64,000 bases of DNA, from the NCBI GenBank assembly GCA_017506865.1, contig JAFCMP010000059.1, positions 62,001-126,000 of the forward strand, written 5' to 3'. The DNA is from Tribonema minus. Its lineage: Eukaryota > Sar > Xanthophyceae > Tribonematales > Tribonemataceae. The translations under genes were made by a program, and so were the position numbers. How positions within the stretch are numbered: the first letter of the stretch is position 1; each line of letters opens with the position of its first letter. Shown here piece after piece: positions 1-37,697 of the stretch. The notes beneath the pieces were generated by a model that made no database searches, was not told where the DNA came from, and was given only the letters and a program-made list of their open reading frames with translations.

Positions 1-3000
1 TGAACGAGTGGAAGCCGAGGGACGACGAGCCTTGGTGTCCGGCGTGGCGGCTGGCGTTCATCATGGCGCCCATTGTCTGCAGGCGTTTGGCGACCGCACA
101 GGCGAAGCGCATCTCGCCGCCGATGTCGGACATCAGCAAACGGTACACGGGAGCGGAGGTCTGATTGGAACGGTGAGTGCGACCGAGCTGCTGAACCGCC
201 TTGTCTGCGCTCCAAGGCAGTTCTAGGGTGATGTGCACTCGACGCCTCTGGTTGGCAACGCGTCTGTCTGCCTGGAGCGATATTCCGACCGAGGCGGCAT
301 CGGAGATGATGGCATACAGCTTGTTTCCATTTTGAAACGCCTGTTTCTCTACCATGTTCCGATTCTTCATGGCCGTGTTCTTGGCGTTGCGTTTCTCCAT
401 GTGAAGTGAGCCATCTGGTGATCTGACGAGCCGTTGCGTGCGCCCGGTGAGTTCGGCGACTTTGGCAGGGCCACCGAGTCGATCTGCGCTCGCAGAAGAG
501 GACGCGATTGAGTCAAGTTGAGTCGCAGAAGAGGCTGCGATTGAGTCAAGTTGAGCCGCAGAGGCTGCGATTGAGTCAAGTTGAGCCGCAGAGGATGCGA
601 TGGAGTCAAGTTGAGCCGCAGAGGATGCGATGGAGTCAAGTTGAGTCGCAGAGGATGCGATGGAGTCAAGTTGAGTCCATGAGTGGTACATGCAAATGAA
701 GTAGCGAGGCAGACTCACCGAGTAGAATGTCGAGAGGGTTACCAGGGAGCGCGAGCGCCATGGCCTTGGTCATGAGACGGTTGAAGCGCTCGACCTTGAC
801 ATTGCGCGACTCGATGGACTCGGTCGCATCGGCGGACTCCGTTGCATCGGCGGACTCCGTTGCATCATCGCACCTGTCTGCATCCTCGTCTGCACTCGCC
901 TCGTCTGCATCATCGCACTCGTCTGCACTCTCGTCTGCACTCGCCTCGTCTGCATCTTCGCATTCCTCTTCATCGTCAGATGAATCAGCCGCAGTCTCGG
1001 TGACGGCATCGCGGCGAGCCGCTTCGATGCTGCCGCCGGCGGCGACCTCGTCGTCGGTCCAACACGCCTCCTCCTCGTCCACGGTCTGCACGGCGGCTTC
1101 GCTTGAGTCTGACGACGAGTCGTACGTTGTGTACGCTGCGCGGGCCACGCGAGGCCGAAGCGTCCTGGGTTGCAGAGAGTCCGTATCCGACTCATCGTCA
1201 CTGACCTCCGCGGTCCTCGTTACCTTGTGGCTCTCGTGACGGGGGTACTGCGCGCCTTTATACCTGATAACGCGACGACAAAGACTGCACTCAGAGACCT
1301 GGACTTTGACAAGAATGCACTCATGAAGCCGAGGTCAGGACACTCGCCAGAAGAGCCGAAATATCGTCGTCTTGAGGACCTCGTGGGGCGCCGAGATGAA
1401 GTCGTCGGTAGCCTCGTCGGCACCGATGGCACTCGAAGTGCGAGCTTCGCCGGTCGACTGAAGCCCGATGACAGCGCACATGCCGGACTCAACTGCCGCA
1501 GTCGCCAACTTGACGGCGCGGTCGACCTTCATGGCCATGCAGAGACTGCAGGCGCAGAGAGACGAGGTCAGCTGGAGACGAGCGTGCATAGACACAATGC
1601 ATTCACTCGACCCTACTGAATCTGTGTCTCACCTCTTGAAGAACGTCTGGTGCGCGCTCCAAAACAGCTTGCTCAAAGCCGAATCAGTCGGACCCTTGAT
1701 GACGATGCCGTCCCTGTTGTGCACGATAGCTCCGGGCTGCAAGCAGATTCAATCGGGTCCGAGCGAATGTCAGTGTCTACGACGCATCTAGCCTGAGGCT
1801 GTGGCGAGTGCGGCAACCGAGTCTGTGAGTCACCTGCTGCACAATGTCCAGCGTCCCATCTGCGACGCCCCTGTTGAATGCTGTCAAAATATCTTGCCAC
1901 AGCTCGACGGCGCTGTCGTACACGGCAGAGTCAACGTCGATCCTGTCCAGCTTGAACTCCGCGTTGTCGTAGCTCAACGTGCGACACACGAGCGCACCCT
2001 CCTCCTTCAAGTGAAGCGCCGTCAGCTCCATCGTGCCGATGCCGCATGCACTGACGGAGTCCTTCCAGCACTTGAAGCTCGCCTCGAAGTCGTCTTCGTC
2101 TGCACAACCGAGAGAGAGGGCACACAAAAGGTCAACGCACGACACGGCGCACACAAAAGCACAGTAGCCCGCGTACTCACCGAAGCACGTCCCCGGACCC
2201 CAAAGTCCCATCCTGGTCATGTAAGCAAGATTGCTCGGCTCAGAGACCGCCGTGGCACTGCAGTACACGATCCTGGCAGAGGGAAGCTCGTCTTGTATGT
2301 CGAAGATGGCCTTCCCGGTCTTGGTCTTCTTCTCCAGATTCTTTGCCTGCGAGCAACAAAATGGTCAGTGCGCGTGTGTGCAATCGACAATATCAGAGCA
2401 TCGTGGTACACACCTTGTGAGACTCGTCCAGCATGATCGGTCCATCAAAGCCTCTCCCCAACCACGAAAAAATCTGTTTGAGACGCGCCCGGTTGGCCTG
2501 ACCGAGGGTGGTGTACGTCGTGAACAGCACGCCATGCTCGATGTCAATGTCTCCCGATGTCTTGAAGCCCGAGTGCAAATGAATCGGTATGTGCTCCGCG
2601 CCGATGTCAGACATGTCCCTTGAAGCGTCACCAACAAGTCGGCGCCCGTGCTGATCCAGATGGCGCGACGCCTCCCCTTGAGCCAGTTGTCGTAGATGAT
2701 GGCCGCGATCTGTCGACCCTCTGCATGCAGCGCAACAGATACGAGCACGCGTGGCGTCTAAGGCACAGCTCGCGGACTGGTGTCATGCATACAGATCAGT
2801 AACACTCACTCCCGACACCGGCGCCGTCGCCCAGGATGAAGCCTCGGCGGGTACCGTCCATGTTGAAGCGCTCGTGGATTTGGCCGGCGTAGACAACAGA
2901 CTCCAGCTGCAGCCCAGAAATCCCAGTGCGGAGCGTGTCGGCTGGCAGACTGTGCCTGTACGTGATGTCAGGCGGCGTCACGTTGTGCAGCGCACCACTC

Positions 3001-3377
3001 TCCACGACTGCGTCAACAAGAAATAAAAAAGTGTAAGCCGTCGAGCCAAGTGCAGCGAGCGGAGACGCGTCCACAAACTCACCGGCGTCAGGATGATCCT
3101 CGCACCCTTCTGTGATGAGCTCCACCGTCGGACTGTAAAACGAGTATTTGAGCTCAATCGCCTCCTCGTACTCGTCGTGGTCTTCAGCCTTGCCGTCGGC
3201 CCTATCCACCGCCTTGATGCTGGCGCCCAAGCGCTTCACCACTGTGTTGCCCTCAGACACAGTCATCACGGCGTCGTCATCACTACTGTCGCTGAAGTCG
3301 TAGTCGCCCATCTCTTTACCGGACAACGCGGCGTCACCGTATGGCTCTGAGGAGATGTGTGGCTGAGCTGGTGCCAT
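1..3377 (-). CDS. SBNO: Strawberry notch-like SF2 helicase, 3' end cut by window, one apparent frameshift
   Basis: Homologue of the Strawberry notch (SBNO) family, nuclear helicase-like transcription/chromatin regulators. Reading from ATG 3377: an acidic N-terminus, then the P-loop GDGAGVGKGRQ assembled across an intron, DESHK (DExH box), [26 protein letters not shown], a long Asp/Glu-rich insert, and the C-terminal helicase block with [16 protein letters not shown] and [21 protein letters not shown] introns that restore the family's frame: 3008-3082, 2721-2809, 2347-2413, 2100-2180, 1737-1833, 1546-1632 and 484-718. Another intron must lie near 1225-1345 but its ends are unresolved. Near 2630-2640 the frame must slip by one base to pass from AIWIST to DMSDIGAEH, so either a base is missing or the gene is decaying. 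The intron number suggests a host nuclear gene, although giant viruses also carry SBNO-like helicases. Confidence 0.88.
509..683. repeat. 30-33 bp minisatellite inside an SBNO intron
   Basis: About six head-to-tail copies of a unit built on GAGTCAAGTTGAG followed by a CGCAGAGGATGCGAT-like half, 30 bp long (33 bp in the first copy). The array fills most of the 484-718 intron, whose donor (GGTGAGT) and acceptor (GCGCAG) lie just outside it. Open frames across it on both strands are repeat artefacts. Confidence 0.85.
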
Positions 3378-8340: not shown

Positions 8341-8945
8341 CCCCAAAACGTGTTGCCCGGACAGTGGTACGTCTCCGTGTTGACGAGGCCGATCTCGTGA
8401 CTGAATACGATCTTCAGTCCTGCCTCCTCTATGCCATCCATAGTGCCTCTCTTGACGTGCACCCAGTCGCATGCCCAGTCGTCAATCATGATGATCACTC
8501 GCCTGTCGAACAGCGGCTTGAAGTGAGTGATGGCGCGCTTCTGGTCCTTGTAGTTGTGCGCTCCGTCGTACAAGAAGATGTTGATCGGAAGCGGCACATC
8601 TTTCTTGGAGATATCCCAGCAATTCTTGTCGTGAACGATCATCGATGCCTCAGGTATGAATCTCTCCGTGTTGCGGAAGAAGTCGTCCCGCCCGCCGAAC
8701 TCGGACCAGTTGTCGACGCAGAAGCCGGTGCACTGGTCGTTTTCGTACATGGCGGACACGAAAGAGCTGCCTTTGAAAGTGCCGACCTCGAGATACCTGG
8801 CCCCCGGGAGTGAGCACATGTTATTGTACAGGTGCCGAGTCTTGGAGCCTGACATACCTTGCATGTTCAACACGTCATCCGTCAACTTGGACTTGTTGAT
8901 GTACGCTGACAGAATGGAGTTCTTGACGTGCGTCACAAGGTCCAT
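8328..8945 (-). CDS. class I SAM-dependent methyltransferase (Methyltransf_24-like)
   Basis: Intronless, 205 residues. Motif I is seen as RYLEVGTFKGSS (AdoMet-binding loop) at about residues 50-60, an acidic turn as FCVDNW, and the family-typical YDGAHNYKDQKRAI followed by VIIMIDDWACDW. This is the pattern of PF13578 methyltransferases, common in viral and bacterial genomes and of varied substrate. Start ATG 8945 has an AT-rich tract (AAAAAATATTTCAC on the minus strand) about 20 bases upstream, like other genes of the island. First clearly intronless gene after the LRR gene, so it helps place the island's left edge. Confidence 0.75.
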   Translation of the reverse strand: MDLVTHVKNSILSAYINKSKLTDDVLNMQGMSGSKTRHLYNNMCSLPGARYLEVGTFKGSSFVSAMYENDQCTGFCVDNWSEFGGRDDFFRNTERFIPEASMIVHDKNCWDISKKDVPLPINIFLYDGAHNYKDQKRAITHFKPLFDRRVIIMIDDWACDWVHVKRGTMDGIEEAGLKIVFSHEIGLVNTETYHCPGNTFWGGVV

Positions 8946-8973
8946 GGTGCATGTGAAAGAGTGAAATATTTTT

Positions 8974-9534
8974 TCAAGCTAGACTAGCACATGACTGCGA
9001 TGTCGCGGCGATGTACAGTTTCTGAAGTTTTCTCTTGACCGCGGTAGTACAACTAGGGGACGTGTACAGCTTGGGCCCGTTGTAAGACAGTTGCCAGTCG
9101 ATGCCGACGCATTGCCTGCTCTCGATGAACGACGGCACTCCATTCGCATCGATCTGAACCAGCATCGGCGACTGTGCGCCACTGGCAGCAGCGAGCTCCG
9201 ACACGGGGCGCATCGTCTGATTCATCGCGGCGTACGTGGTCCTGCTTTTGGCGTCCACGAGGACTAGTGAATTGCCCATCGGCATTGTCGTGAACAGCAG
9301 AGCTTGTTTGATGTTCTTTGTCAGAGTGAGAGGTGCGTTCTTACTGGGGACCCAGAGCCATTGACAAGATTTTCCGGCGCCGAGCGTGGCAGCAGGGTCT
9401 GCGAGTTTGCACATGAGAAGGTACCTGTTGGGCGCAGCGCCGAGGGCTCTCCTGCTTACGAAGTACATCCTCAGACCCAGTCCGCTCAAGAGAAGCAGCG
9501 CTGCGTATATGCCAGCTATCAGACCAGGGTGCAT
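8974..9534 (-). CDS. unknown protein with N-terminal membrane anchor
   Basis: 186 residues. Residues 5-27 (LIAGIYAALLLLSGLGLRMYF) form an uncleaved signal-anchor followed by VSRR, so the rest probably faces away from the cytosol. Four later cysteines (CKL, SCQW, QCVG, SCTT) could form disulphides. No family recognised. Lies 29 bp from the methyltransferase start on the same strand; a membrane-anchored virion or envelope protein is one possibility. Confidence 0.6.
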   Translation of the reverse strand: MHPGLIAGIYAALLLLSGLGLRMYFVSRRALGAAPNRYLLMCKLADPAATLGAGKSCQWLWVPSKNAPLTLTKNIKQALLFTTMPMGNSLVLVDAKSRTTYAAMNQTMRPVSELAAASGAQSPMLVQIDANGVPSFIESRQCVGIDWQLSYNGPKLYTSPSCTTAVKRKLQKLYIAATSQSCASLA

Positions 9535-9551
9535 CTTTCTTTGCTAAATTC

Positions 9552-9983
9552 CTACATAAAAATGTTTGGGATCTCGTGCTTTGTGGTCGTAAGCACGGGC
9601 GTCAGCAGAACGGGCTTTGTAGACGTCGCGGGGGGAGGTACGAAAGTGTAGTTCCACTTCCTTGTCAGTCTTGCTAACGTCTCATCCGTCATCTGTTGTA
9701 CTGTCGCTTGGTGAAATATGTGCGCCTCGAAGACAGCTCTCATGACGTCGTCCAGGTCATACACCATCACGTTACGGTCCACGTTCGTGGCACCGGCGCT
9801 CGCCTTCCCCCAGATGTAATCACGCATGTTCATCCATTGGCTCCACAGGACCGCTTCGCGGGAGTCCGTAGTTTCGTAGGCGCGCTCTCGTGTGAGAACC
9901 GACGACACCGCGTTCGTGCGGAGAGACAGCGACGGCCGCAACTTACCGGAAGCATCTTGCTTGCCTCCGAGATAGTATACCAT
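9552..9983 (-). CDS. unknown protein, 143 aa
   Basis: Intronless frame from ATG 9983, 17 bp upstream of the anchored protein gene on the same strand. Soluble, with a Thr/Pro-rich tail (FVPPPATSTKPVLLTPV). No family recognised. The spacing suggests the tight packing of the island rather than a host gene. Confidence 0.55.
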   Translation of the reverse strand: MVYYLGGKQDASGKLRPSLSLRTNAVSSVLTRERAYETTDSREAVLWSQWMNMRDYIWGKASAGATNVDRNVMVYDLDDVMRAVFEAHIFHQATVQQMTDETLARLTRKWNYTFVPPPATSTKPVLLTPVLTTTKHEIPNIFM

Positions 9984-10015
9984 CTGTGCGCGTTACATGA
10001 ATACAACAAAATAAG

Positions 10016-10168
10016 TCAGGGTATCAATGCAACGAGTGGTAGCAGCTCTTCGCAGGCTTCCTTCATCAGTTGAAGTATTGACTGATCGCGGCACCCGTTT
10101 TCATCCAGCAGGTCGATGCAACTCTGCAGGCAAGCGATGGCATTCTTGGCGTCGTGTCGGTGATTCAT
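10016..10168 (-). CDS. small helical protein, 50 aa
   Basis: A 51-codon frame, easily missed because of its size: ATG 10168, stop at 10016-10018. The product is almost wholly amphipathic-helical (NAIACLQSCIDLLDENG, ILQLMKEACEELLPLVALI) with four cysteines. It sits 32 bp upstream of the 9983 gene on the same strand, filling what would otherwise be an empty gap. No family recognised. Confidence 0.5.
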   Translation of the reverse strand: MNHRHDAKNAIACLQSCIDLLDENGCRDQSILQLMKEACEELLPLVALIP

Positions 10169-10204
10169 CGGGTTTAATCAGACTGCCTCATCACAAATAT
10201 TGGA

Positions 10205-10221
10205 CAAAAAATATATTGTTG
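10205..10221 (+). promoter_or_regulatory. candidate AT-rich promoter element
   Basis: AAAAAATATATTGTTG lies about 20 bases upstream of ATG 10242. Similar A-tract plus ATATTG or AATAATG stretches precede ATG 28105 (AAAAATATTGTTGCG), ATG 20860 (CAAAAATAATGTG) and, at 11673-11685 (AAAATAATATATTG), lie between the divergent starts 11632 and 11703. This suggests a shared promoter box of the island. It is an eye-made comparison, not a statistical motif. Confidence 0.3.
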
Positions 10222-10241
10222 TACATGTAAAGACACATACC

Positions 10242-10661
10242 ATGGCGCATGTGACCCCTGGTGCAAGAGCCTACATCAAACCCGACGATTTCTATGGCGA
10301 CGTCGTGCGGACGACCGTCCTGAATCTAGCGAACAGCCCGGTGGTGCAGCGCGACGACGGCAAGCTGCGTGCGTTCATGGGTCAGGAAGTAGCCGAGGTC
10401 GTCAACAAGGAGACGAAGAGCGATGGTGTAGAGACCGTGGACGATCTGCCCCTGGACGTCCGGATGGTCGGCATCGAGCTCATGAGCGCAATGGGAATTC
10501 CCCAGGAGACTCAGGCTCTGATGTTCAACAACTGGCTGTCCAAGCTCACCAAGGAGCAGCGCACGGCCTACACTACGCAGTTCGCAGCTGTGGACACCAA
10601 CGACGCTGCCGCCGTGGGCGCATTCATCACGGCGATGACAGCGGCCCTGACGGCTCTCTAA
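10242..10661 (+). CDS. unknown soluble protein, 139 aa
   Basis: Start chosen at ATG 10242 (context ACCATGG) rather than the in-frame ATG 10200, because the latter would place the AT-rich promoter-like tract inside the gene. Acidic, helical, with an Ala-rich C-terminus (AAAVGAFITAMTAALTAL). Its stop codon ends one base before the 64-bp palindrome. No family recognised. Confidence 0.6.
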   Translation: MAHVTPGARAYIKPDDFYGDVVRTTVLNLANSPVVQRDDGKLRAFMGQEVAEVVNKETKSDGVETVDDLPLDVRMVGIELMSAMGIPQETQALMFNNWLSKLTKEQRTAYTTQFAAVDTNDAAAVGAFITAMTAALTAL

Positions 10662-10662
10662 G

Positions 10663-10726
10663 TGTGCGCCCAGGTGGTCAATGCAACGCATTTCGAAATG
10701 CGTTGCATTGACCACCTGGGCGCACA
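10663..10726. repeat. perfect 64-bp palindrome, candidate telomere resolution site
   Basis: Two 32-bp arms with no spacer, exact in every position: left arm 10663-10694 (starts TGTGCGCCCAGG), right arm 10695-10726, centre GCATTTC/GAAATGC. Symmetry stops abruptly on both sides (G10662 against T10727), so it is not the tip of a longer fold-back. It sits between convergent genes and encodes the last codons and stop of the minus-strand gene. Size and perfection match the targets of phage telomere resolvases (about 50-60 bp perfect palindromes), and such an enzyme is encoded at 15498-16628. A bidirectional 3'-end hairpin, as in mimiviruses, is the main alternative. Confidence 0.85.
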
Positions 10727-11007
10727 TAAGCTTCTGATTCCGCGAGACTCTCAAGCCTCCTGAGCCCATCATCAGCTTCTGCGTCCACGTACTGATCGTC
10801 CTCGTCATCTTCATCGGCGTCGTGTGCATACCCGGGGCGCTGACTGGTGTACTTGTAGCACAAGTTAACAAAATCCTCAAATGACAAGTTATCCAGCAAT
10901 ATCAAGCCCTCATTCTTGATGGCTTGTTGCATTTTGTAGTACATGTGCCAGACGCACTCTTCAACGTCAGGCCTCATCATGTAACCGAAGACGTTGTGTT
11001 CGGCCAT
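10678..11007 (-). CDS. unknown protein, 109 aa, C-terminus encoded in palindrome
   Basis: Start ATG 11007 is preferred to the in-frame ATG 11082, which would overlap the end of the dNMP kinase gene; an A9 tract lies at about 11037-11045. Contains a predicted helical domain (VEECVWHMYYKMQQAIKN, LSFEDFVNLCYKY) and an acidic linker (DADEDDEDDQYVDAEADD). The last 16 codons including the stop lie in the 64-bp palindrome, so those residues may be fortuitous. No family recognised. Confidence 0.5.
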   Translation of the reverse strand: MAEHNVFGYMMRPDVEECVWHMYYKMQQAIKNEGLILLDNLSFEDFVNLCYKYTSQRPGYAHDADEDDEDDQYVDAEADDGLRRLESLAESEAYVRPGGQCNAFRNALH

Positions 11008-11068
11008 GCTATGCAGAGTCCGTTCATGACAGAAGATTTTTTTTTCAGCTAGGTATAACGCATTTCCA

Positions 11069-11632
11069 TTAAAGCTCGGCAACCAGCCTCATCAGTATCC
11101 CGCAAGCCTTGGTCTGCAGATCCTGTACAGTCCCGTCGTTGAGTACGGTCACGTCGCAGTTGATGTCGGCGATGGCGCTCTCGGATGCGTGCTCATCCCT
11201 GACGTCCGTTGAACGCGGCCTCGTGATGCGTATCAACACCGCACGACACCCTTCGTAATCCCTCAGGAATTGCGCTTCGTTGTGAAAACGCACATCGGTC
11301 ACGATCGCAATCTGTGACTGACACGCATCCAATCTCATCCTGAGGTGCCTGATCCAGTGATCCTCGCCGAAGTTGGCGCGCACACACTCGGTGCCGAGGA
11401 CCTGCATCATTTTCCTTCGCGATACTCCCCACCGGTCGTCGACGGACTCCTTCTTGACGCGATCCTCGAGGTCGTCCACGTCCAACGAAAATATTGATCT
11501 GCATGCGGCCTTGATCGGGTCTGCAAAACTGAGCTTCGCGAAGTCTTTGGCGTCATCCCCCACCGCGTTTGCAAATGTATCCTTGCCGGCAGCCTTCGGA
11601 GCGACCAGGCCAACGATCAGACGAGGTGCCAT
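11069..11632 (-). CDS. deoxynucleoside monophosphate kinase (dNMP kinase)
   Basis: 187 residues. P-loop-like VGLVAPKAAGKDTFA at residues 7-21, then LSFADPIKAACRSIF and RKMMQVLGTECVR, with VTDVRFHNEAQFL and a late IRITRPRS Arg-rich segment. This layout is that of the phage T4 gene 1-type and giant-virus dNMP kinases, which phosphorylate dNMPs to dNDPs for DNA synthesis. A nucleotide-metabolism gene supports a viral origin of the island. Divergent from the secreted-protein gene at 11703, the 70-bp gap being AT-rich. Confidence 0.82.
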   Translation of the reverse strand: MAPRLIVGLVAPKAAGKDTFANAVGDDAKDFAKLSFADPIKAACRSIFSLDVDDLEDRVKKESVDDRWGVSRRKMMQVLGTECVRANFGEDHWIRHLRMRLDACQSQIAIVTDVRFHNEAQFLRDYEGCRAVLIRITRPRSTDVRDEHASESAIADINCDVTVLNDGTVQDLQTKACGILMRLVAEL

Positions 11633-11702
11633 CCGGTCACGCTGAGTGTGACAGCTCTCTCACCGGCTGAGAAAATAATATATTGAATGAATAAAAGATT
11701 TG

Positions 11703-11990
11703 ATGAGACTCTGTCTGTATGTCGTTTTGCTAGCGCGAATCTTCGCCGTGGACGTGGCAGACGCAGTAGTGCGCGAATGCCGGGCGCAAATCTTGAGATG
11801 TACACAGAGCGCGGCATGCACGTTCTGTTTTGACGTGTTTCGTGCCCCAAAGCTTCCCGACACAGAGCGCATGAGAAAGCTGATGTACCACATAGAGAAA
11901 GGTTTCTCAGAAGACTGCGACCTCAGCGACACGTCTATGAGCGCCCTCATGCTGTGTGCAATGACGAGTACAGTCAAACACAACACGTAG
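11703..11990 (+). CDS. small secreted or ER-lumen Cys-rich protein, 95 aa
   Basis: ATG 11703 opens a clear signal peptide (RLCLYVVLLARIFAVDVADA) followed by a short domain with several cysteines, including VRECRAQILRCTQSAACTFC. No family recognised. Divergent from the dNMP kinase; the shared gap carries AAAATAATATATTG. Confidence 0.5.
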   Translation: MRLCLYVVLLARIFAVDVADAVVRECRAQILRCTQSAACTFCFDVFRAPKLPDTERMRKLMYHIEKGFSEDCDLSDTSMSALMLCAMTSTVKHNT

Positions 11991-12188
11991 TTGCTCGTGC
12001 GGCGCCGTGTGACCGAGACGCAGACAAATGCAATATGACGGCAGTCGACAAAGCTAGCGCTACCGACGCTGCTGCTATGGTGTAAGTGCACTCTACAAAC
12101 TCCTTGGCGCTCGAGCAATCACGCCATCAAGGCATTCTCCTGCGCAGGGACAGCGATCCGTTCGAGCGCGCTCGCGTTGGGTCAAGAG

Positions 12189-13037
12189 CTAGAGCGATGT
12201 CTTTTCGAGGATCCTAACGAACTCTTCACGTTTCTCCCGCATCTGCTCCGGCGTACACAGCAAGTCGTTGACTTCGGCGACACCTGCTGAACTGCTGCCG
12301 TAGTACTCCTGTAGGAACTGCGAGCACAGCAGCATGGAGTCCAGTCGGGCAATGTCATCTACGGAGTTGATAAGTACAGTCAAGTCGTACAGCTTCGCCA
12401 CCTTGCAATCCACGCTGGCATCACCAAAGTATACAGTGCGCGACGTGTCTACGAATTGGACATGAGGTGGCTCGCAGATCGCATTGCCGGTGTGCAGGTC
12501 TCCGTGAACGAAACCGCTAGCGTGCAGGCTCTTGAGTAGCTGCGCACACACTTGCATCAGGCGTCTCGCGCCAACGCGACCACTGGCGAGGACGGCGTGC
12601 AAAGACTCAGTGCCCACATCTCGCATCAGCACGAACCCGAAGCTGACACCTGCGCCGCCCTTCACCACACACGCATCGAGTATCTCGGGGAATATGCCGG
12701 GCGCGCCGAGAGCTACCGCATGAAGCATAACGATCTCACGTCTGAAACTCTTGATGTCGGTCACAAACCAAGGTTCGCCCAGCACATTCATACCCGTTGC
12801 GCTGCTCAGGTTCACCAGCTTGGCGACGACACCAGCATCTTCGTCGGTCCTGCCGGCCAGAACTACACCGTAGCTCCCCCTGCCTCTCACATCAGTGATG
12901 CTATACCTCTTCCTGCTCGGCAAACGTTGCGATATAGCGTCGCAAACGTTCAGCCCGGCGCGCGCCGCAGCTGATATCCCCAGCACGCAAGAAAAAGTCA
13001 CGGCACTCAGATGCGATTCTACAATCACCTCGACCAT
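12189..13037 (-). CDS. protein kinase-like protein
   Basis: 282 residues with a hydrophobic N-terminal stretch (AVTFSCVLGISAAA). Kinase features in order: Gly-rich loop VRGRGSYGVVLAG at about residue 50, Lys in GVVAKLV, a Glu in KSFRREIVML, catalytic loop FVHGDLHTGNAI (HGDLHxGN, typical of aminoglycoside-kinase-like, ABC1/RIO-like and viral kinases) and the metal-site Asp in QFVDTSR instead of DFG. Key catalytic residues are present, so it is probably active; whether protein or small molecule is the substrate cannot be said. Confidence 0.72.
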   Translation of the reverse strand: MVEVIVESHLSAVTFSCVLGISAAARAGLNVCDAISQRLPSRKRYSITDVRGRGSYGVVLAGRTDEDAGVVAKLVNLSSATGMNVLGEPWFVTDIKSFRREIVMLHAVALGAPGIFPEILDACVVKGGAGVSFGFVLMRDVGTESLHAVLASGRVGARRLMQVCAQLLKSLHASGFVHGDLHTGNAICEPPHVQFVDTSRTVYFGDASVDCKVAKLYDLTVLINSVDDIARLDSMLLCSQFLQEYYGSSSAGVAEVNDLLCTPEQMREKREEFVRILEKTSL

Positions 13038-13198
13038 GCGGATGCATCGCCTTCTTGTGAGTGCTAACCCGTCTAATTTGAATACTCCTCAGCCACTTGT
13101 CAAAGTCCTCCCCTGTGCCTTTCTTGAGCTCGATCAGCTGCGGCATGCTTCGCAATGTCTCAAGACCAACTTTTTTTTTCTGTCTCAAGATCAAAAGC

Positions 13199-14452
13199 AT
13201 GTCTGAAGCAGTATCGCCGCCCGCCTCTGGTCCTGAAACATCTTCACAGGAGTGTGCAATTTGCCAGCTCACCAACTCGGCACTCGTCGCGACTTCGTGC
13301 GGTCACAATTTCCACCTGTCGTGCCTGCTGAAATGGAATCAAAGCCAGTCTCGTAGGGGCTACCCCACCACGTGTCCAACATGCCGCCAGCATCTCATAG
13401 ACTCCAACACGCCGAGCGTGCCCATTGTGCACAACACACCGGCACCTAGTGTACCTGGACCAGCGCAGTTGATCGAGAGCATCTGGTCGTTCCACGCACC
13501 CGCCACGACGCCCGCTGCAGGCGCTTCCAGAAGCGATGCCCAGCGCATGGCAGACACAATGTTCGCCATGCTGAATGTGCCCCCGATCACCACTACGCCC
13601 CCCGCAAACCCTACCGCTGCTACACCTCCTCCCCCTGCGCCACCAGCCGATGCTAGTGCACCGCCCCGTGACAATCACGTCAATCTCGGCCCGCCGCCAG
13701 ATGATGTCGACTTGGAGATCGAATACGACATGCTCATGTATGCGCTTTCAGAGGGCGATCACGTCACCATGCGCCAAAGGATCTCGGAGTGCCCCGCCGT
13801 CGTCCATTGCCGTTCCGAGGACGGCACCACCGCCCTTCATCACGCCATCGCGCGCGACAACCAAGAAGCGGCTGAGACGTTGCTCGCCAACGATGCGTCT
13901 GCGAGAGCGACGACCAACTACGGAATCGCGCCGCTTCATCTAGCAGCCATGCGCGGAAGCGCGGACCTAGTGACCAGACTCGCGTTTCAAGGAGGTTTCA
14001 TCGGTGCCAGAGACCCATCCGGCAACACACCTCTGCACTACGCGATCCGGAACATGGACGCCATCATGACCGTCAAGCTCATCGCTGGATCTGCGTCCGT
14101 CGACGTCCCTAACCTGAAGGGCGAGACGCCACTACATGTGACTGCGCGCCACGGTTCGCCCGTCATGAATGCCGTAGTCATCGGAACGTCACGTCACGTC
14201 GACAAGACCGACCACCAGGGTAACAATGCCCTGCACGTCGCAGCGCGGTACCAGAACGTAGACTTTGCACGTCGCATCATCGAACGGGCTACGTCCATGA
14301 TACGGTTCGCAAGGAACTTGGAGGGAAGATCGCCCTCGGATATCGCCTTCGCTTCCAGTAACGTGCTCATGCACAATGTGTTCTCCGCTGCACAGACAGC
14401 GGACACGATGGACGACACCGATGACGATGATGATGAGGACAGCTTCGAATGA
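13199..14452 (+). CDS. RING-H2 finger plus ankyrin repeat protein, likely E3 ubiquitin ligase
   Basis: 417 residues from ATG 13199. RING-H2 finger near the N-terminus: CAIC, then CGHNFHLSC and CPTC give C3H2C3 zinc ligands. A Pro/Ala-rich linker follows, then about six ankyrin repeats (GTTALHHAIARDNQEAAETL, IAPLHLAAMRGSADLVTRL, NTPLHYAIRNMDAIMTVKL, ETPLHVTARHGSP, NNALHVAARYQNV) and an acidic tail (DTDDDDDEDSFE). The usual start at 13097 in the same frame is less likely. Such RING-ankyrin fusions are used by large DNA viruses to steer host ubiquitination; that role is inference. Confidence 0.8.
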   Translation: MSEAVSPPASGPETSSQECAICQLTNSALVATSCGHNFHLSCLLKWNQSQSRRGYPTTCPTCRQHLIDSNTPSVPIVHNTPAPSVPGPAQLIESIWSFHAPATTPAAGASRSDAQRMADTMFAMLNVPPITTTPPANPTAATPPPPAPPADASAPPRDNHVNLGPPPDDVDLEIEYDMLMYALSEGDHVTMRQRISECPAVVHCRSEDGTTALHHAIARDNQEAAETLLANDASARATTNYGIAPLHLAAMRGSADLVTRLAFQGGFIGARDPSGNTPLHYAIRNMDAIMTVKLIAGSASVDVPNLKGETPLHVTARHGSPVMNAVVIGTSRHVDKTDHQGNNALHVAARYQNVDFARRIIERATSMIRFARNLEGRSPSDIAFASSNVLMHNVFSAAQTADTMDDTDDDDDEDSFE

Positions 14453-14524
14453 GCAAAAAAATCGGTATTTTATTTAATAATTAAAATGTTGTCCTATGTA
14501 TAGAGATCGGCACCACTCTTACAA

Positions 14525-14800
14525 ATGTTCGGTATCGTAATCAAGGATCGCAACACGTGCACGCGCGGCATCGTGCTGGCGCCCACAACGGCAAACAAGA
14601 ACACTCGCGAGACCTGTGTACTGAAGAAGTCCATGCGCGACGCCACACGCCTCAAGAAGCTGAATGACCGCAGGGACGCCAAGGAGACCATGAGGCGTGT
14701 CAATTTGAAGGAGAAGTTCGGCAAGCCGCCCGTGAAAGGATCCGCATCGCAACAGAAGCTGCTGAAGCTTATGCGCAAGTCTTCGTCAAACAGCATGTAA
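14525..14800 (+). CDS. small very basic protein, 91 aa
   Basis: Rich in Lys/Arg (RDATRLKKLNDRRDAKETMR, LKLMRKSSSN), about a quarter basic residues, no hydrophobic segment. An AT-only stretch at 14467-14485 lies upstream. It could bind nucleic acid or be packaged with DNA; no family recognised. Confidence 0.5.
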   Translation: MFGIVIKDRNTCTRGIVLAPTTANKNTRETCVLKKSMRDATRLKKLNDRRDAKETMRRVNLKEKFGKPPVKGSASQQKLLKLMRKSSSNSM

Positions 14801-14846
14801 AGTGAGGTTCTGAGCAAATAAAATAACATTGCTAAACAAAACCGAG

Positions 14847-15494
14847 ATGCGAGTATCTCTTGCAATTGATGTCTCAGGGCTTGATGACGATTGGCTGTCG
14901 TCTGATGAAGAGTTAGATGCAGACATTGAATCAGGATCCGAGAGAGGTTCGGTTTCAGCTTCCGATCGGACCGAATCCACGGAACCCTACGAGTCCATGA
15001 GTGTCTCCATCGTCGACACGGACACCGAATCGGACGCGGCCTCCACGTCTGTCACTCCGTCCACGACGGAGACCAAAGTTTTCTTTGACGGCGCGAAGAT
15101 GTACCAACAACTTGCGGAGCGGATGTCGATGTCGATATATGATGCGTGCGGCGTGGAGCGCGGGGACGTGCCGCGTCTAGAATCTGTGTTTGAAGTCAAC
15201 TTCGGCAAGACCACTGTCGCTGCGAGGTTCGCCAGGAAACTGCGCACCACCGAGGCAATGTTGCAGCTGGCGCTAGATACGATCAGACTCACGTGCTTTG
15301 CGGACGACAAGGTGGTCGCGGTGGAGAAGCGCACGAAAGCATGCAATGTATCGAAGCTGGCCATCGCGGTGCTGGAGTCGGCAGACCACGACGACCACGA
15401 GGATGAACTCGTCACGAAGGAGGTGGACTTCTGCATAGACTACGTCGTGGACCTGCTCGAGCGAAAAGCCTACGTCGCATCCCTGACGGTCTAA
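14847..15494 (+). CDS. unknown protein with acidic Ser-rich N-terminus
   Basis: Start at ATG 14847 (the frame opens earlier but without ATG). Residues 10-75 are acidic and Ser/Thr-rich (DDDWLSSDEELDADIESGSE), then a folded helical part (YQQLAERMSMSIYDACG, AARFARKLRTTEAMLQLALD). Ends 3 bases before the ATG of the telomere-resolvase-like gene, on the same strand, so the two could be co-transcribed. No family recognised. Confidence 0.55.
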   Translation: MRVSLAIDVSGLDDDWLSSDEELDADIESGSERGSVSASDRTESTEPYESMSVSIVDTDTESDAASTSVTPSTTETKVFFDGAKMYQQLAERMSMSIYDACGVERGDVPRLESVFEVNFGKTTVAARFARKLRTTEAMLQLALDTIRLTCFADDKVVAVEKRTKACNVSKLAIAVLESADHDDHEDELVTKEVDFCIDYVVDLLERKAYVASLTV

Positions 15495-15497
15495 ATT

Positions 15498-16628
15498 ATG
15501 TTGGTGTACTTGTGTCATATGATGAGCACCGAAATACATCTGTTTCTGACGGCCTTCCTCGAAGACACCAAGGACGCAAGCGCAGTCCTCGATTGCATCA
15601 GCCAGAAGTGGCCGAAGTGTAGAGCGACATACTTGTCATGCGTGAAAGCCGCCTGGATGGCGCAAGAGATTTACTCTGAGGAGTGCGTCGCCAAGATGGC
15701 TGACATCGATGTGCTACTCAAGAAGAAACTGACAGGCTCACGGGGCAAGACGAGAGACTCCGTCAAGCTGGCCATCGACGACTACGCAAAGTTCAAGGCG
15801 TTGTCGCTCAAAGACAAGACCGGAGTCCAAAAGTTGTTGCGTCAGCAACCGTTGACTGGACTCGAAGACGTCGATGCCGCCATCCAGAAATTACCGATCT
15901 TGCCCCAGTACGTTCGTGACTTGCACCTGACGAAACAAGAATCTGATGACGCCGCGCGTAAATCGATGGAGGCGCTCGCTACCAAGAGCGTGAATTCGAT
16001 CAACATCGATGCCAGCGACTTGATCGCAGAGTGCGAGAAGACGCTGCACAACGCAGAGAGCAACGCATTCGATCTGGCGGCCGCCATAGCGCTGACTTGC
16101 GGCAGACGGATGGTTGAGATCTTCAGCGTCGGGTCATTTGACGTCGTCGCCGGTGACCAGCGCACTCTAGCATTTGCCGGTCAAGTCAAGAAACGCTTCG
16201 GCAGTGACGATTGCACCATGCACATCCCGACCCTCACGGAAGCGTCCGCGGTGCTAGCCGCGATCAACAGATTGCGCTCAGAGAAGAAGTGCGACGGGCT
16301 GTCCAACAGAGACATCAACCTCAAATACAGCAACTCATGTCAGAGCGCAGCCAGGCGGTTGTTGGGCAAAAATGGCCATTTCCACGAACTGAGGGCCATG
16401 TACGCCGTGATAGCCTTCAATGCGACGCTGCCTCACTCGTACTCGCTCAATGCGTTCGTGTCACGCGTGCTGGGACACGTGGGACTGGGCAACTCCCTCA
16501 CGTACGCGTGCATCAACGTGTGCAACCTTGCGAGCGAGCACAAGTTTCGGTGGTCGCACCTCGACGCTTGTGGCGTCACGGCATCCCCGAAACGCAAAAC
16601 GTTGCGCGAGGTCATCCACAAGACTTGA
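15498..16628 (+). CDS. telomere resolvase (protelomerase)-like tyrosine recombinase
   Basis: 376 residues. The C-terminal half has the full tyrosine-recombinase residue set: Arg204 in CGRRMVEIFSVGSF, Lys231/232 in FAGQVKKR, His296 and Arg299 in HELRAMYAVIAF, His327 in VLGHVGL and Tyr336 in SLTYACINV (His to Tyr 9 residues). The GRRxxEI-GxF and GQxKxR wording and RAxYAxIA after the HxxR box follow my knowledge of the telomere resolvase family (TelK, ResT, TelA) rather than ordinary phage integrases. The N-terminal half is helical, as in those enzymes. They cut a palindrome and join each half into covalently closed hairpin ends. Co-oriented with the 14847 gene. Alternative: a divergent integrase. 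Confidence 0.68.
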   Translation: MLVYLCHMMSTEIHLFLTAFLEDTKDASAVLDCISQKWPKCRATYLSCVKAAWMAQEIYSEECVAKMADIDVLLKKKLTGSRGKTRDSVKLAIDDYAKFKALSLKDKTGVQKLLRQQPLTGLEDVDAAIQKLPILPQYVRDLHLTKQESDDAARKSMEALATKSVNSINIDASDLIAECEKTLHNAESNAFDLAAAIALTCGRRMVEIFSVGSFDVVAGDQRTLAFAGQVKKRFGSDDCTMHIPTLTEASAVLAAINRLRSEKKCDGLSNRDINLKYSNSCQSAARRLLGKNGHFHELRAMYAVIAFNATLPHSYSLNAFVSRVLGHVGLGNSLTYACINVCNLASEHKFRWSHLDACGVTASPKRKTLREVIHKT

Positions 16629-16762
16629 ACTGAACACGCAGAACCACGGCGTCTCGCTACCACGGCCGACCACGCTGGTGTCAAGGAGTCTGATCGACTG
16701 CTGGAGCACCATTCGCACTACGCCTAGCAACGCCGCCAGCACGAGCATCTGGATGAACACAG
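16461..16762 (-). pseudogene. 3' part of a membrane-protein gene split by the IS4-Fanzor transposon
   Basis: On the minus strand an open frame enters from the transposon edge and starts with a hydrophobic helix (FIQMLVLAALLGVVRMVL), running open to a stop at 16461. Its frame is exactly that of the truncated gene 20428-20820 once the transposon and one 8-bp target copy are taken out, so both are pieces of one gene. Its last 170 bases overlap, convergently, the end of the recombinase gene, so the true C-terminus is uncertain. Confidence 0.65.
16755..16762. repeat. 8-bp target site duplication, left copy
   Basis: GAACACAG directly precedes the left end (CAATGGTGGCAACTTAG) and recurs at 20434-20441 directly after the right end. 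Confidence 0.8.
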
Positions 16763-16784
16763 CAATGGTGGCAACTTAGTACAA

Positions 16785-17885
16785 ATGTCAACTTTGAGAC
16801 TTTTTTATATGCACGTGATATCAAAACACATGTTCAAAACCATGTATAACGAGTTCGAGAATGCTACATGGCAAACGAGACGGAGAAAAATCTCCACTGC
16901 GAGCGTTTTTTCATATCTGGTATCTGCATCTGTTGATGACAGGGGATTGCGGCATGTTATGAGCAGAGATGATGCCTCATTTTCGCATCAAGCACTATCC
17001 AAGGCACGTGCCAAGATACCCGAAGGCTTCTTCAGGCAGATCAACCGCAAAATGCAAGTTAAGCGAGAACCAGGGACGAGGATTGTTGCAATTGACGGGT
17101 CTAAAGTACGTGTTCATCCTTCATACATGTCAGAGGGCTACAAAAGCACGTCGTGTAGAGATTATACGAGACGGCTGATGTTGTTGTCATCAGCGTTAGA
17201 TGTTCACTCTAGAACTTGTTTTGACGTCCAGTTCTCAAAATCATTTGATGAGAGGGCGTGTGCAAGGTCACACATGGAAACACTGACACGTGGCGATACC
17301 ATGATATTTGACAGGGGTTACTTCTCATTTGCACTGTTAAAAGCCGCTAATGAGAAAGGACTCAGGGCACTTTTCAGGGTCAGAAACAATGCTTGCAGGT
17401 CCGTGAAGTATTTCTACAAGCAATGTGCCACGTACCGAAAGGTTATGGTGATACAGGATGGGGACCTGACACCGATGTGGTTGTACAAGTACTACATCGA
17501 CGGTGTGAAGTATGTATGTGCCACAAACTTCGAATCTTCTGTTCAGCGCGTGCAGTCGCTTTACAAGCTTCGCTGGAGAGTTGAAAGTAGCTTCAAGAGG
17601 CTTAAAGGCGTGCTTAATCTTGAAAAGAGTCATTCGCGGACGGCTGCAGGCTTCGCACAAGAGGTTGAAGCTAGAATCTTGTTTGATACAGTATGTGTCA
17701 ACCAGTGTGATGAACCTACATCAGGTTACTTGAAGTCTGTCGATATGTGCAACACAGTCTGTAAGGTTATGTTGATATGTGCAGAGACCATGTTATCATA
17801 CAAAAGCTTCCGCAGCATACTAGCAACATACCACACACATATTTACACAAAGCTCATGAGACCATCGCCAGTGCGTTTAAAATAG
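16785..17885 (+). CDS. IS4-family DDE transposase
   Basis: 366 residues. Catalytic Asp104 in VAIDGSKV, Asp176 in IFDRGYFS, and Glu267 in YKLRWRVESSFKRLK, which fits the IS4 YREK signature exactly: Tyr260-(2)-Arg263-(3)-Glu267-(6)-Lys274. The enzyme would cut and paste DNA bounded by the CAATGG... ends. The coding sequence is more AT-rich than neighbouring genes, a sign of separate origin. Start ATG 16785 lies 22 bases inside the element. Eukaryotic IS4-like elements (IS4EU) are known from algae and other protists. Confidence 0.9.
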   Translation: MSTLRLFYMHVISKHMFKTMYNEFENATWQTRRRKISTASVFSYLVSASVDDRGLRHVMSRDDASFSHQALSKARAKIPEGFFRQINRKMQVKREPGTRIVAIDGSKVRVHPSYMSEGYKSTSCRDYTRRLMLLSSALDVHSRTCFDVQFSKSFDERACARSHMETLTRGDTMIFDRGYFSFALLKAANEKGLRALFRVRNNACRSVKYFYKQCATYRKVMVIQDGDLTPMWLYKYYIDGVKYVCATNFESSVQRVQSLYKLRWRVESSFKRLKGVLNLEKSHSRTAAGFAQEVEARILFDTVCVNQCDEPTSGYLKSVDMCNTVCKVMLICAETMLSYKSFRSILATYHTHIYTKLMRPSPVRLK

Positions 17886-18012
17886 GCAATTTATTTTCTC
17901 TTTCTAAAGTTAATTAACGGGACAGTCGTCTGATGGTATTTTATTAAACATTAAATAAACAGACCCTGCCAGTCTCTCCTTCACACCCCATCTCAAAGAG
18001 GTCGATCAGACG

Positions 18013-20328
18013 ATGCCGAAAAAACGACCCAAACGTGAACTCACGGCAACAGAGATAGAAGAGAGGCGCAAGGACGTAGCAGATAAGCGCAAGAAGAAGA
18101 AAGAAGACACATCGGTCAACAACTATCGCAATCGCCTCATCCACGCTTTCGGCGAGCGCGTCGTGCAGAAGCTGGATAAGGATGGCGTTGTGCAAGGGCT
18201 GTACAGCGAGTCTCAGGACCAGGAGGAGTTGTTCTTGCGTGCCTTCGACCGCATGAGGAACAAACACTTTGTCCCTCGGCATCGCGTCGTATCCATCGGA
18301 CTGCGCACGGTGCTGAAGGATACGGCCCTGAAGTACGACATACTGTGCAAGATGAACGAGTTAGTGGAGTACTTCTCAAAGGTCCGCGTGTATGCATCGC
18401 TCTTCTCCAACTTCGTCGTAATCAGTTGCCTGGACTCGACGACACCCCTACCGCAGATCGACTCGGCGTTCTTCAGGGACTGCTTTGGCGTTTTCTGCTA
18501 CCCGACTAGGCAAAATCCCCTGTCGGAGTACATGGAGAGATTCACCAGTCTGACGGACTTACCAGCGTTTCCTGCACCACCTCTTACCAAGGAGGTCAAG
18601 AACGATCAAGCCACCAAGCTCTGGACTGCCACGAAAACCAGGATGGAAGTCCATTACCAATCGCGCGTGAAGGGCATTTCAAACTGGGTGCTCCGCAGCC
18701 TCATCCGTCCTCACCACACCGACATCACCGACAAGGCATTCTCCGCGAAGATCCACAAGCTGGTCACCTTCATCGACACATGTGCTTCCAGCGAGGGAGT
18801 AGATGCGAAGCTTGAAGAGCTGGGGTTCGACAAGCCACCATACGTGGACGCCGTGAAGACGTTTGCGGAGCGGGCCAAGAAGCAGACCACCGTCACCAAT
18901 CAGATACAGCACTGGTACGACCTGCAGAAAGAGTACGTGGATGAGCCGAGACGCAGGTTCGAGCTGATGGTGAGGATAGCCATCAAGATGTATCCTGGGA
19001 AGGACAAGGCCAGCAAGACTGCCCGATCAACTTATCTCAAAGCGCAGCTCATCGGCAAGGCGCCCCCCAAGATCTTGGCTCCTCTCCCGATGGCTTCTCC
19101 CAAGGCAGCTTTCATCCGCATCGATAAGTCTACAATGAAGGCGCTCTTCCCGTCTCTCGACATACAGATGGGACCATGGGGGTATAGTGCATTTCTTGAT
19201 CCCTACAGCAAGCTGGCTAACATCAGGTGCCTGCGCAACTCGACATGGGGCAGGAGCGAACGCGGAATGATGGCCGCGATCGGCAATCAGGACATGACCG
19301 AGTGCCCGTGGCTCGTAGCTCCCACGTTTGAGACCGATGGTCATCAGATGAAGCTATGCCTGCTGACGTCTGACGCGACCAACGGTGGAGCTCCCGGGGT
19401 GAGATACCTCAACGACGCCGGCTACAAGTTGCGCACCAAGAATGTCCCTTTGCAGACGATACTGGATCTCGGGAGGGGCGTCTACAACGACACGGGCATC
19501 ATCTACGGAGGGCGCGAGGCAGTCGATGACGTGTACATAGGAGGGATCGACCCGGGCATCATCAAGCCTATCAACTGCATATACGGTACAGGGGCTGCAT
19601 GGAGAGACATGAAGGGCGCACTGACACACGACACCGCTTTCGAGTATGTCGTCGTCACCGAGGATGACATCAAACAGATGTACAACCGGGGGCGAAGCAG
19701 CCACAACGAAGCGGTCATGCGTTCCCGTACACCATATGGACAGGCCTTGAAGACGCTGTGGAAGTATCGCAAGAAGTCATCACGTCTCCAAGACATCATC
19801 GCCTACTGCCGTACCTGGAGGTCTGTCGAATCACTATATTGGGCGGAGATACTCAAGAAAGTGCGCAAGGTACGGAGGTTCGAGCGGTTTCGCAACATCC
19901 AGACCCAGGTGCAGAACATCAGGAAGAAGATCACGACGCACCTGCAAGGGCGCAGGGGGCTCCTCGTCTTCGGCAATGGCTCTTTCAAGGCAAAGAAGGG
20001 GCACATATCTGTGCCACGCAAACAGATAGTGAGGGCATTGGCAATTGAGTGTGCTGTAGTTATGGGCGACGAGTACGGATCTAGCAAGTACAGTCCCCTG
20101 TGTGGACACGAGTTAGTAAACCTCGACAACGGAGAAGGCAGGCGTACAAGGGTGTGCTCAATTCCCCTTTGCCGCACTGACACGTTCGATAGGGATGATG
20201 GTGGCGTGGGTGGTATTGTCAAGACGTTCTTGAGTCGCTTCGGCGCTGGGTCGTGTAGGAGGCGCAGAGTAGAACAAGACGATGGGTACTCCACCGAGGA
20301 AGAGTCGTCCGACGTTGAATTGTGGTAA
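18013..20328 (+). CDS. Fanzor, eukaryotic TnpB-like RNA-guided nuclease
   Basis: 771 residues. A Lys/Arg-rich N-terminus (KKRPKRELTATEIEERRK, possible nuclear localisation signal) precedes a long helical region. The RuvC centre is in the C-terminal third: Asp513 in IGGIDPGIIKP, Glu687 in VVMGDEYGSSKYS, Asp728 in TFDRDDGGVGG. Between the last two is a zinc ribbon that looks degenerate: the first CxxC pair reads SPLCGH (Ser for the first Cys) and the second CSIPLC (four residues between). TnpB and Fanzor proteins cut DNA guided by an RNA from their own transposon end. Length and linkage to a non-IS607 transposase suggest the Fanzor1 group. The guide RNA would be sought around 20329-20433. Confidence 0.85.
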   Translation: MPKKRPKRELTATEIEERRKDVADKRKKKKEDTSVNNYRNRLIHAFGERVVQKLDKDGVVQGLYSESQDQEELFLRAFDRMRNKHFVPRHRVVSIGLRTVLKDTALKYDILCKMNELVEYFSKVRVYASLFSNFVVISCLDSTTPLPQIDSAFFRDCFGVFCYPTRQNPLSEYMERFTSLTDLPAFPAPPLTKEVKNDQATKLWTATKTRMEVHYQSRVKGISNWVLRSLIRPHHTDITDKAFSAKIHKLVTFIDTCASSEGVDAKLEELGFDKPPYVDAVKTFAERAKKQTTVTNQIQHWYDLQKEYVDEPRRRFELMVRIAIKMYPGKDKASKTARSTYLKAQLIGKAPPKILAPLPMASPKAAFIRIDKSTMKALFPSLDIQMGPWGYSAFLDPYSKLANIRCLRNSTWGRSERGMMAAIGNQDMTECPWLVAPTFETDGHQMKLCLLTSDATNGGAPGVRYLNDAGYKLRTKNVPLQTILDLGRGVYNDTGIIYGGREAVDDVYIGGIDPGIIKPINCIYGTGAAWRDMKGALTHDTAFEYVVVTEDDIKQMYNRGRSSHNEAVMRSRTPYGQALKTLWKYRKKSSRLQDIIAYCRTWRSVESLYWAEILKKVRKVRRFERFRNIQTQVQNIRKKITTHLQGRRGLLVFGNGSFKAKKGHISVPRKQIVRALAIECAVVMGDEYGSSKYSPLCGHELVNLDNGEGRRTRVCSIPLCRTDTFDRDDGGVGGIVKTFLSRFGAGSCRRRRVEQDDGYSTEEESSDVELW

Positions 20329-20433
20329 AGCGGTAGTATGAAATTCCTTGACGGTCAGTGCGGACGACATGGGGCTGAGGGAGAGGAGACACATGAGGCT
20401 ACTTTGTCGTCTTTGCTTAAGTTGACATCAATG
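20329..20433 (+). other. transposon 3' end, place to seek the guide RNA
   Basis: Non-coding 105 bases between the Fanzor stop and the right terminus. In TnpB and Fanzor systems the guide RNA usually comes from the nuclease gene's 3' end and the adjoining element end. No fold was computed; location is inferred from the family. Confidence 0.3.
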
Positions 20434-20820
20434 GAACACAGCTAGGATACACTCAATGAGCGGCGTGATGCAGCGCTTGCTGATTTCGACGTAGCCGATC
20501 TTCTTCTCGTTCAAACCGTTGATCACAGACGCAAGTTCGCTCACCGTCGTCAGCACCGTCGGAATGTCACCGAGCGTCACCTGGCCATCTGCGAAGACGC
20601 CTCGCATGCACCTCGAGACGCACTCTTGTACGTTAGCACGGACATCCCGCTGACTGATAAAGTCATGAACAGCAGACACGTCAGCGGTGCTCATGATGAC
20701 GTTGACCGTACGAAATGCATCGTCTGGCTTCACCAGAGGCGCCTGCGACTCCGGTGTGATGTCGTTGAAAGCATCGCGCGCCATGCTGTAGACGGCGAGC
20801 GTCAGCGTATCGAGTGACAT
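20428..20820 (-). pseudogene. 5' part of the gene split by the transposon, 130 aa remain
   Basis: From ATG 20820 the frame runs through a helical protein (SKRCITPLIECILAVF) and stops at 20428, where the last two codons are made of transposon end sequence. Skipping the element restores an open frame that continues at 16762 with a hydrophobic helix, so the intact protein would have been about 225 residues with a membrane segment. No family recognised. A truncated soluble product could still be made. Confidence 0.7.
20434..20441. repeat. 8-bp target site duplication, right copy
   Basis: GAACACAG follows the right terminus (…CATCAATG) and matches 16755-16762. Confidence 0.8.
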
Positions 20821-26447: not shown

Positions 26448-26484
26448 AAAAAAAATGCACTGCGTTACGCGCAGTGCTTTTTTT
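26448..26484. promoter_or_regulatory. hairpin with A and T tails between divergent genes
   Basis: GCACTGCG (26457-26464), loop TTACG, CGCAGTGC (26470-26477), flanked by A8 on the left and T7 on the right, so a stem of 8 bp can extend by seven A-T pairs past one bulged T. It lies 40 bp upstream of ATG 26417 (minus) and 28 bp upstream of ATG 26505 (plus). Could be a shared promoter operator or a hairpin transcript boundary. Confidence 0.5.
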
Positions 26485-37417: not shown

Positions 37418-37423
37418 AACCGT

Positions 37424-37697
37424 TGAGATATTGACATCGCGCAAATCACCGTGCAGAGGAACCTGAGCTTGAGCCATCACAGCAACAAGTCACGCACACG
37501 TGCTAGTGTGTAGGAAAAGAAGTGGTATTACAAAGCACAGCAAGCCTGGGCATTCCAGCTCAGGATTGCTGAGTCATGCATGCAAAAGATCTCGAACTGA
37601 TCTCGAATGATCTCGAACAGATCTCGAACAAACTGCAACGTCAAGTGCATAACTTCAAGTGCAACCTGACTGCTACAAAACAGTGCTCATTTCAACA
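37424..37697 (-). repeat. copia 5' LTR
   Basis: 274 bp, the upstream LTR in the element's direction; ends six bases before ATG 37417. Confidence 0.93.

Follow-up and report, generated by a model that had tools for sequence, protein, structure and literature searches.

An exact 64-bp palindrome near a gene for a recombinase of telomere-resolvase type raises the question of whether the two belong together. Both lie in the window, the 64,000-nucleotide stretch of the genome of the yellow-green alga Tribonema minus analysed here (positions 62,001 to 126,000 of contig JAFCMP010000059.1): the palindrome occupies 10663-10726 and the open reading frame (ORF) of the recombinase, on the plus strand at 15498-16628, starts 4.77 kb from it. 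An earlier note on this DNA read the pair as a hairpin-telomere module of a virus-like island, with the palindrome as the resolution site of the enzyme. Palindrome and ORF are each far beyond chance, and doubt is limited to their functional connection. The two are very probably unrelated: one is a telomere resolvase of an endogenous virus of the xanthoviruses, the sister group of the phaeoviruses, and the other is a copy of a miniature inverted-repeat transposable element (MITE) that is not a substrate of the enzyme.

The recombinase gene and its relatives

The ORF at 15498-16628 encodes 376 amino acids, with a likely start, judged by eye, at Met9 (15522). It carries the motifs GRRMVEI, GQVKKR, HELR, and LGH followed by a downstream tyrosine, which bears out the GRRxxEI / GQxKxR wording and the Arg-Lys-HxxR-His-Tyr order that had been reported about 4.8 kb from the palindrome. 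The active-site set of telomere resolvases consists of Arg, Lys, K/HxxR, His, and Tyr; in the window protein this set is intact (R204, K231, H296/R299 as HxxR, H327, and Y336).

Profile, sequence, and fold comparisons agree on the family. The only Pfam domain above its cut-off is ResT-TelK_cat (PF16684; 97.6 bits vs 27), and the solved relatives found by a sequence search of the PDB are TelA, TelK, and ResT only (seven distinct sequences); the NCBIfam TelA equivalog scores 37.8 bits, far under its 800-bit cut-off. The predicted model (mean predicted local distance difference test score 80.4, predicted template modelling score 0.56) has eight best PDB matches, all of them the protelomerases TelK, TelA, or ResT, and ordinary integrases, the first of which is the Tn1549 integrase, rank after these at E 0.026 or worse. 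Profile search and structure prediction against TelK and ResT, which the earlier note had proposed, thus both favour a resolvase over an integrase. Among phage records 42 match the protein, and the ten listed include the annotated protelomerases of phiKO2, PY54, and others. A search of 5.8 billion proteins found ten, all with PF16684; three of the nine that are not the window protein carry the name of an alga (two Tribonema, one Heterococcus). Each of 11 aligned relatives matches PF16684, one with an additional stray NEPRO_N match at 0.007, and some Tribonema proteins are already labelled telomere resolvase domain proteins in UniRef. An alignment search aimed at phaeovirus homologues returned six proteins only, all of them close kin already known (7996 candidates scored), and five scans of viral contigs gave no relative, which left no free virus carrying the gene for comparison. 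By sequence and predicted fold, the gene is a telomere-resolvase homologue and not an ordinary integrase.

In the assembly (158 Mb, 554 contigs) the family profile has 34 matches at E ≤ 0.001, of which 12 are strong (E ≤ 1.3e-17) and 22 weak (E ≥ 1.4e-6). R204, K231, H296, R299, H327, and Y336 are kept in all 12 strong loci, and 11 of these are free of stops in the aligned part. The ratio of nonsynonymous to synonymous substitution rates (dN/dS) is 0.15 between the window copy (C59) and that of C524, whose resolvases are 94% identical (376 codons), 0.04 between C90 and C179 (355 codons), and 0.05 between one of the C223 loci and C181 (345 codons); three of the four close pairs are under strong purifying selection. 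A match to capsid or VLTF3 genes lies within 60 kb of five of the 12 strong loci (C179, C90, C21, and both C223 loci), a distance within which, by our own arithmetic, at most about 1.4% of genome positions fall. C112 and C445 have such a match on the same contig, about 190-440 kb away, and there is none on the contigs of C59, C524, C181, C1, and C346. As to the virus-like nature proposed for the island, its resolvase belongs to a gene family part of which lies near giant-virus hallmark genes, with no capsid or VLTF3 match on the contig of the window. Family assignment, intact catalytic set, purifying selection, and hallmark genes near several copies together lead to the reading of an endogenous giant-virus resolvase.

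The islands of C179 and C90 have VLTF3, capsid, and resolvase spaced nearly alike, as sister integrations or a segmental duplication, and this pair is the best place for seeking a true resolution site.

The palindrome and its dispersed copies

The palindrome is exact, as the earlier note had it: two arms of 32 nt (10663-10694 and 10695-10726) are 100% complementary with a spacer of 0, and about 5e-15 such perfect palindromes are expected by chance in 64 kb of the composition of the window. It is the only one in the window of that quality; five other inverted repeats are longer-spaced and match at 82-91%. It consists of two terminal inverted repeats (TIRs), TGTGCGCCCAGGTGGTCAATGCAACGCATTTC, set head to head, and is flanked by a 4-bp target-site duplication, TAAG, at 10659-10662 on the left and 10727-10730 on the right. 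The left TAAG overlaps the TAA stop of ORF 10200-10661, which directly precedes the palindrome, and a minus-strand ORF (10678-11082) terminates within it.

Related copies are dispersed through the genome. A query of 181 bases around the palindrome, which occupies query bases 64-127, has at least 112 matches (with the best 40 of 211 candidates scored), and all of them except that of the window itself fall in bases 57-136; the 21-nt end of the palindrome occurs exactly 281 times, against 0 for a reversed control. Forty places, the window included, were sampled for duplications, of which 35 have two outward ends and five lack paired ends. Exact 4-bp target-site duplications flank 29 of the 35 measurable copies (27 of 33 distinct insertions, since two pairs of copies have common flanks), whereas one random re-pairing control on the same sample gave a mean of 1.7 and a maximum of 7 in 1000 trials; none of the 35 has an exact duplication of 3 or 5-9 bp, and two have one of 2 bp. 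The 35 paired copies are 60-270 bp long and internally divergent, many with unmatched sequence between the arms, and in the longer ones the terminal repeat extends to ...CGACCTGTACGACAAT. The window copy is a perfect palindrome probably because both of its arms stop at the same base. Many copies are on contigs without a strong resolvase locus.

A related island provides the empty site. The C112 island is colinear with the window over 8343-14043 and onward across the resolvase gene (main blocks 71-77% by blastn), has about 4.7 kb of additional sequence between window positions 11964 and 12304, and keeps a resolvase 80% identical to that of the window. Where the window has CTCTAAG-palindrome-TAAGCTTC, C112 reads CTCTAGGCTTC, with a single TAGG in place of both TAAG; the window flanks, joined after removal of the 64 bp and one TAAG, align to C112 without a gap there. 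The earlier note had named related elements with the gene and no palindrome as grounds against its module, and the C112 island is such an element. The C524 island diverges from the window at 10980 and is therefore uninformative on the exact insertion site. One locus considered as the parent transposon of the family, L103, was rejected as a tandem duplication; pairs of ends on C35 and C65 are further parent candidates.

With its duplication of fixed length, its dispersed short copies with TIRs, and its empty site, the 64-bp palindrome is a MITE insertion. It is a non-autonomous DNA transposon made of two fused terminal repeats, which a transposase placed just past the stop of one of the island genes, duplicating TAAG, either after integration of the virus or within this viral lineage.

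Resolution sites and rival explanations

Three phage stretches, each about 12.7 kb long, served as controls for the palindrome scan; it ranked the annotated telRL of phiKO2 first, at its exact coordinates, and in PY54 it gave a gapless repeat of 50 bp that lies 115 bp upstream of tel, so that in both phages the telRL-type site was located a short way upstream of the enzyme gene. Within 15 kb on each side of the window resolvase it found only the MITE and one weak hairpin with 15-nt arms (26450-26484), which was set aside as terminator-like and too weak. A stricter scan of the window and 70 loci gave palindromes of that kind in MITE loci only, and the 18.5 kb around the C524 resolvase hold no palindrome with arms of at least 18 and a spacer of at most 20. 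A looser scan covered these 18.5 kb, 13.1 kb of C112, 8.0 kb of C445, 8.6 kb of C179, and about 4 kb at each of eight loci, a small share of islands that are possibly hundreds of kilobases long; it yielded one gapless candidate, which is part of a host repeat, and five weaker candidates with spacers.

The gapless candidate, L108:6065 near the C445 resolvase (20-nt arms), was rejected as part of a repeat present at no fewer than 40 places including its own (best 40 of 64 candidates scored); ORFs of this locus read as hAT-like from their sequence, without a family search. The others were set aside: L108:5694 as low complexity of GCAGCAG type, three GC-rich candidates in L047 as weak, and position 2042 of the joined C524 stretch, a candidate with 20-nt arms and a 7-nt spacer that looks, by eye, like the MITE variant L094.

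Two other roles for the palindrome can be weighed on this evidence. A role as a site of telRL type on which the nearby resolvase acts, retained after integration, is suggested by its telRL-like size and perfection, by a true resolvase homologue 4.8 kb off, and by phiKO2 and PY54, which have such a site beside the gene; yet the palindrome belongs to a dispersed repeat family with 4-bp target-site duplications, many members of which are on contigs without a strong resolvase locus, the syntenic C112 island has the empty site, and no such palindrome is present in the 18.5 kb around the C524 gene, which is 94% identical, so that this reading is now extremely improbable. A hairpin for transcription end between two convergent viral genes would fit a palindrome that directly follows the stop of 10200-10661 and in which the opposite ORF 10678-11082 ends, but C112 has both flanks with no palindrome between them, and copies of the repeat, with target-site duplications, occur across the host genome; this role too is very unlikely.

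For the enzyme, the rival role is that of a tyrosine recombinase for integration or excision of the virus, with no hairpins made. The length of the protein, 376 amino acids against 640 for the phiKO2 enzyme, and the lack of a resolution site near the gene in the stretches scanned, would suit such a role, as would the tyrosine recombinase by which, in the available part of the source, phaeovirus integration is proposed to occur (PMC13236599). Against it, telomere resolvases come first in every comparison (Pfam, NCBIfam, PDB by sequence, and fold), with ordinary integrases at E 0.026 only, and in phaeoviruses integrase and resolvase are described as two separate conserved genes (PMC13236599, in the part available); we regard this alternative as improbable.

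The reading of an endogenous resolvase beside an unrelated MITE has several points against it. There is a stop in the C90 copy, and that of C21 is divided between two frames; the fourth close pair, C1-C346, has a dN/dS of 0.46, a value from a very close pair with few changes. Template modelling scores (TM-scores) for the predicted model are modest (0.32-0.48 by query length), so the fold match backs the sequence result and does not substitute for it. Because the contig of the window is without a capsid or VLTF3 match, its resolvase copy may be a dead fragment, and the viral nature of its own island would rest on synteny and the resolvase. An exact duplication is missing in six of the 35 MITE copies (four with one mismatch, one with two, and one with four), and a search for an autonomous parent gave no transposon that would mobilise the MITE. 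The third phage control, HY01, showed nothing clear, and with one of three controls missed an imperfect resolution site could be overlooked; neither the window nor the limited stretches covered near related genes gave a convincing true site, and cutting activity is thus predicted from homology alone.

In an active virus, the resolvase would cut and reseal a palindromic site of telRL type, so that replication products in circular or dimeric form would become linear molecules closed by hairpins. Judged from the enzyme alone, the virus may replicate in this linear form, as the earlier note supposed.

Weaker homologues, neighbouring elements, and known systems

Weaker PF16684 proteins were examined as possible further resolvases (loci L022-L038 and L052-L067, which comprise the 22 weak matches and further ones). 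They are open over 237-481 amino acids in the 15 loci measured. Five of six aligned proteins have lost the first Arg, the Lys, the His of HxxR, the His of LGH, and the Tyr, so that the second Arg alone is left. Most of the loci compared belong to dispersed repeats, of two families or more, whose members are mostly 75-99% alike across 2-3.4 kb, a length that exceeds the gene. These proteins are possibly dead resolvases carried by host mobile elements. A wider proposal, which we hold only tentatively and think rather doubtful, is that xanthoviruses replicate as hairpin-ended linear DNA like phage N15 by means of the conserved resolvase, and that host repeats have also taken up relatives of the enzyme, which have lost catalysis and may bind to the telomere sites of viruses. 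The protein of L029:1105-2331 retains GRR and LGH...HY and adjoins an rve integrase ORF; it perhaps belongs to another kind of tyrosine-recombinase element.

Between palindrome and resolvase are island genes for a deoxynucleotide monophosphate kinase-like protein (11069-11632, minus strand; Pfam DNMK, E 1.7e-21), a weakly protein-kinase-like one (12189-13037, minus strand; Pfam Pkinase, E 0.0012, below the cut-off), and one with a RING finger and ankyrin repeats by Pfam (13097-14452, plus strand). Right behind the resolvase gene a 3.67-kb DNA transposon (16763-20433) is inserted, with an IS4-like DDE transposase at 16785-17885 (NCBIfam IS4, 114.5 bits, cut-off 115), imperfect terminal repeats CAATGGTGGCAACTT / AAGTTGACATCAATG, and an 8-bp duplication, GAACACAG, at 16755-16762 and 20434-20441; it is missing from the C524 and C112 islands, and C524 has a single GAACACTG. 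This transposon carries an additional ORF of 771 amino acids. To the right of the island genes is a Copia-type retrotransposon polyprotein of 1387 amino acids (33317-37480), and on the left side of the window a fragment with an AAA_34 NTPase domain (2796-3377; E 9.7e-19).

With TelK, TelN, and Tel (of phiKO2, N15, and PY54), TelA of Agrobacterium, and ResT of Borrelia, the window protein has in common the catalytic domain, the active-site set, and the best sequence and fold matches; N15 belongs with phiKO2 and PY54 among the telomere-resolvase phages. It differs from these enzymes, to which it is 15-30% identical, in being shorter (376 amino acids) and in that no palindromic site was found beside its gene. 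The palindrome resembles known palindromic or fold-back MITEs in its short length, TIRs, duplication of fixed length, and many internally differing copies, and differs in that its parent transposon was not found.

A viral parallel is the Ectocarpus phaeovirus EVEc, a giant virus that is likewise endogenous in a related alga and has a resolvase gene; its long reads fold back at an inverted repeat, whereas the sole strong palindrome of the Tribonema window is a MITE. The available part of that source, published in 2026, describes telomere resolvases of phaeoviruses and a telRL-like site at which reads fold back, notes that such reads may stem from replication intermediates and that polymerase chain reaction on particles suggested a circular packaged form, and for Tribonema reports tyrosine recombinases with no mention there of a resolvase (PMC13236599). 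Xanthoviruses, in the parts of the sources available, are the sister group of phaeoviruses and known only from integrated genes in yellow-green algae (PMC12993054; PMC13236599). The coccolithovirus ehv387 is also a microalgal giant virus with a predicted telomere resolvase, likened here by its description in the accessible part of the source and not by sequence (PMC10222054), and for EsV-1 a 2008 paper, in its available part, reports the idea and adds that experimental work had been unsuccessful (PMC2373305).

For phaeoviruses, resolvases and a telRL-like site have already been published, and Tribonema adds further resolvase genes together with an ordinary MITE. A tempting false telomere is removed, since the perfect palindrome beside a true resolvase is a transposon; what stands in its place is a family of mostly intact resolvase genes under selection in a xanthophyte, several of them near giant-virus hallmark genes. 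The question of hairpin ends widens from the phaeoviruses to their sister group, with several copies in which to find the real site.

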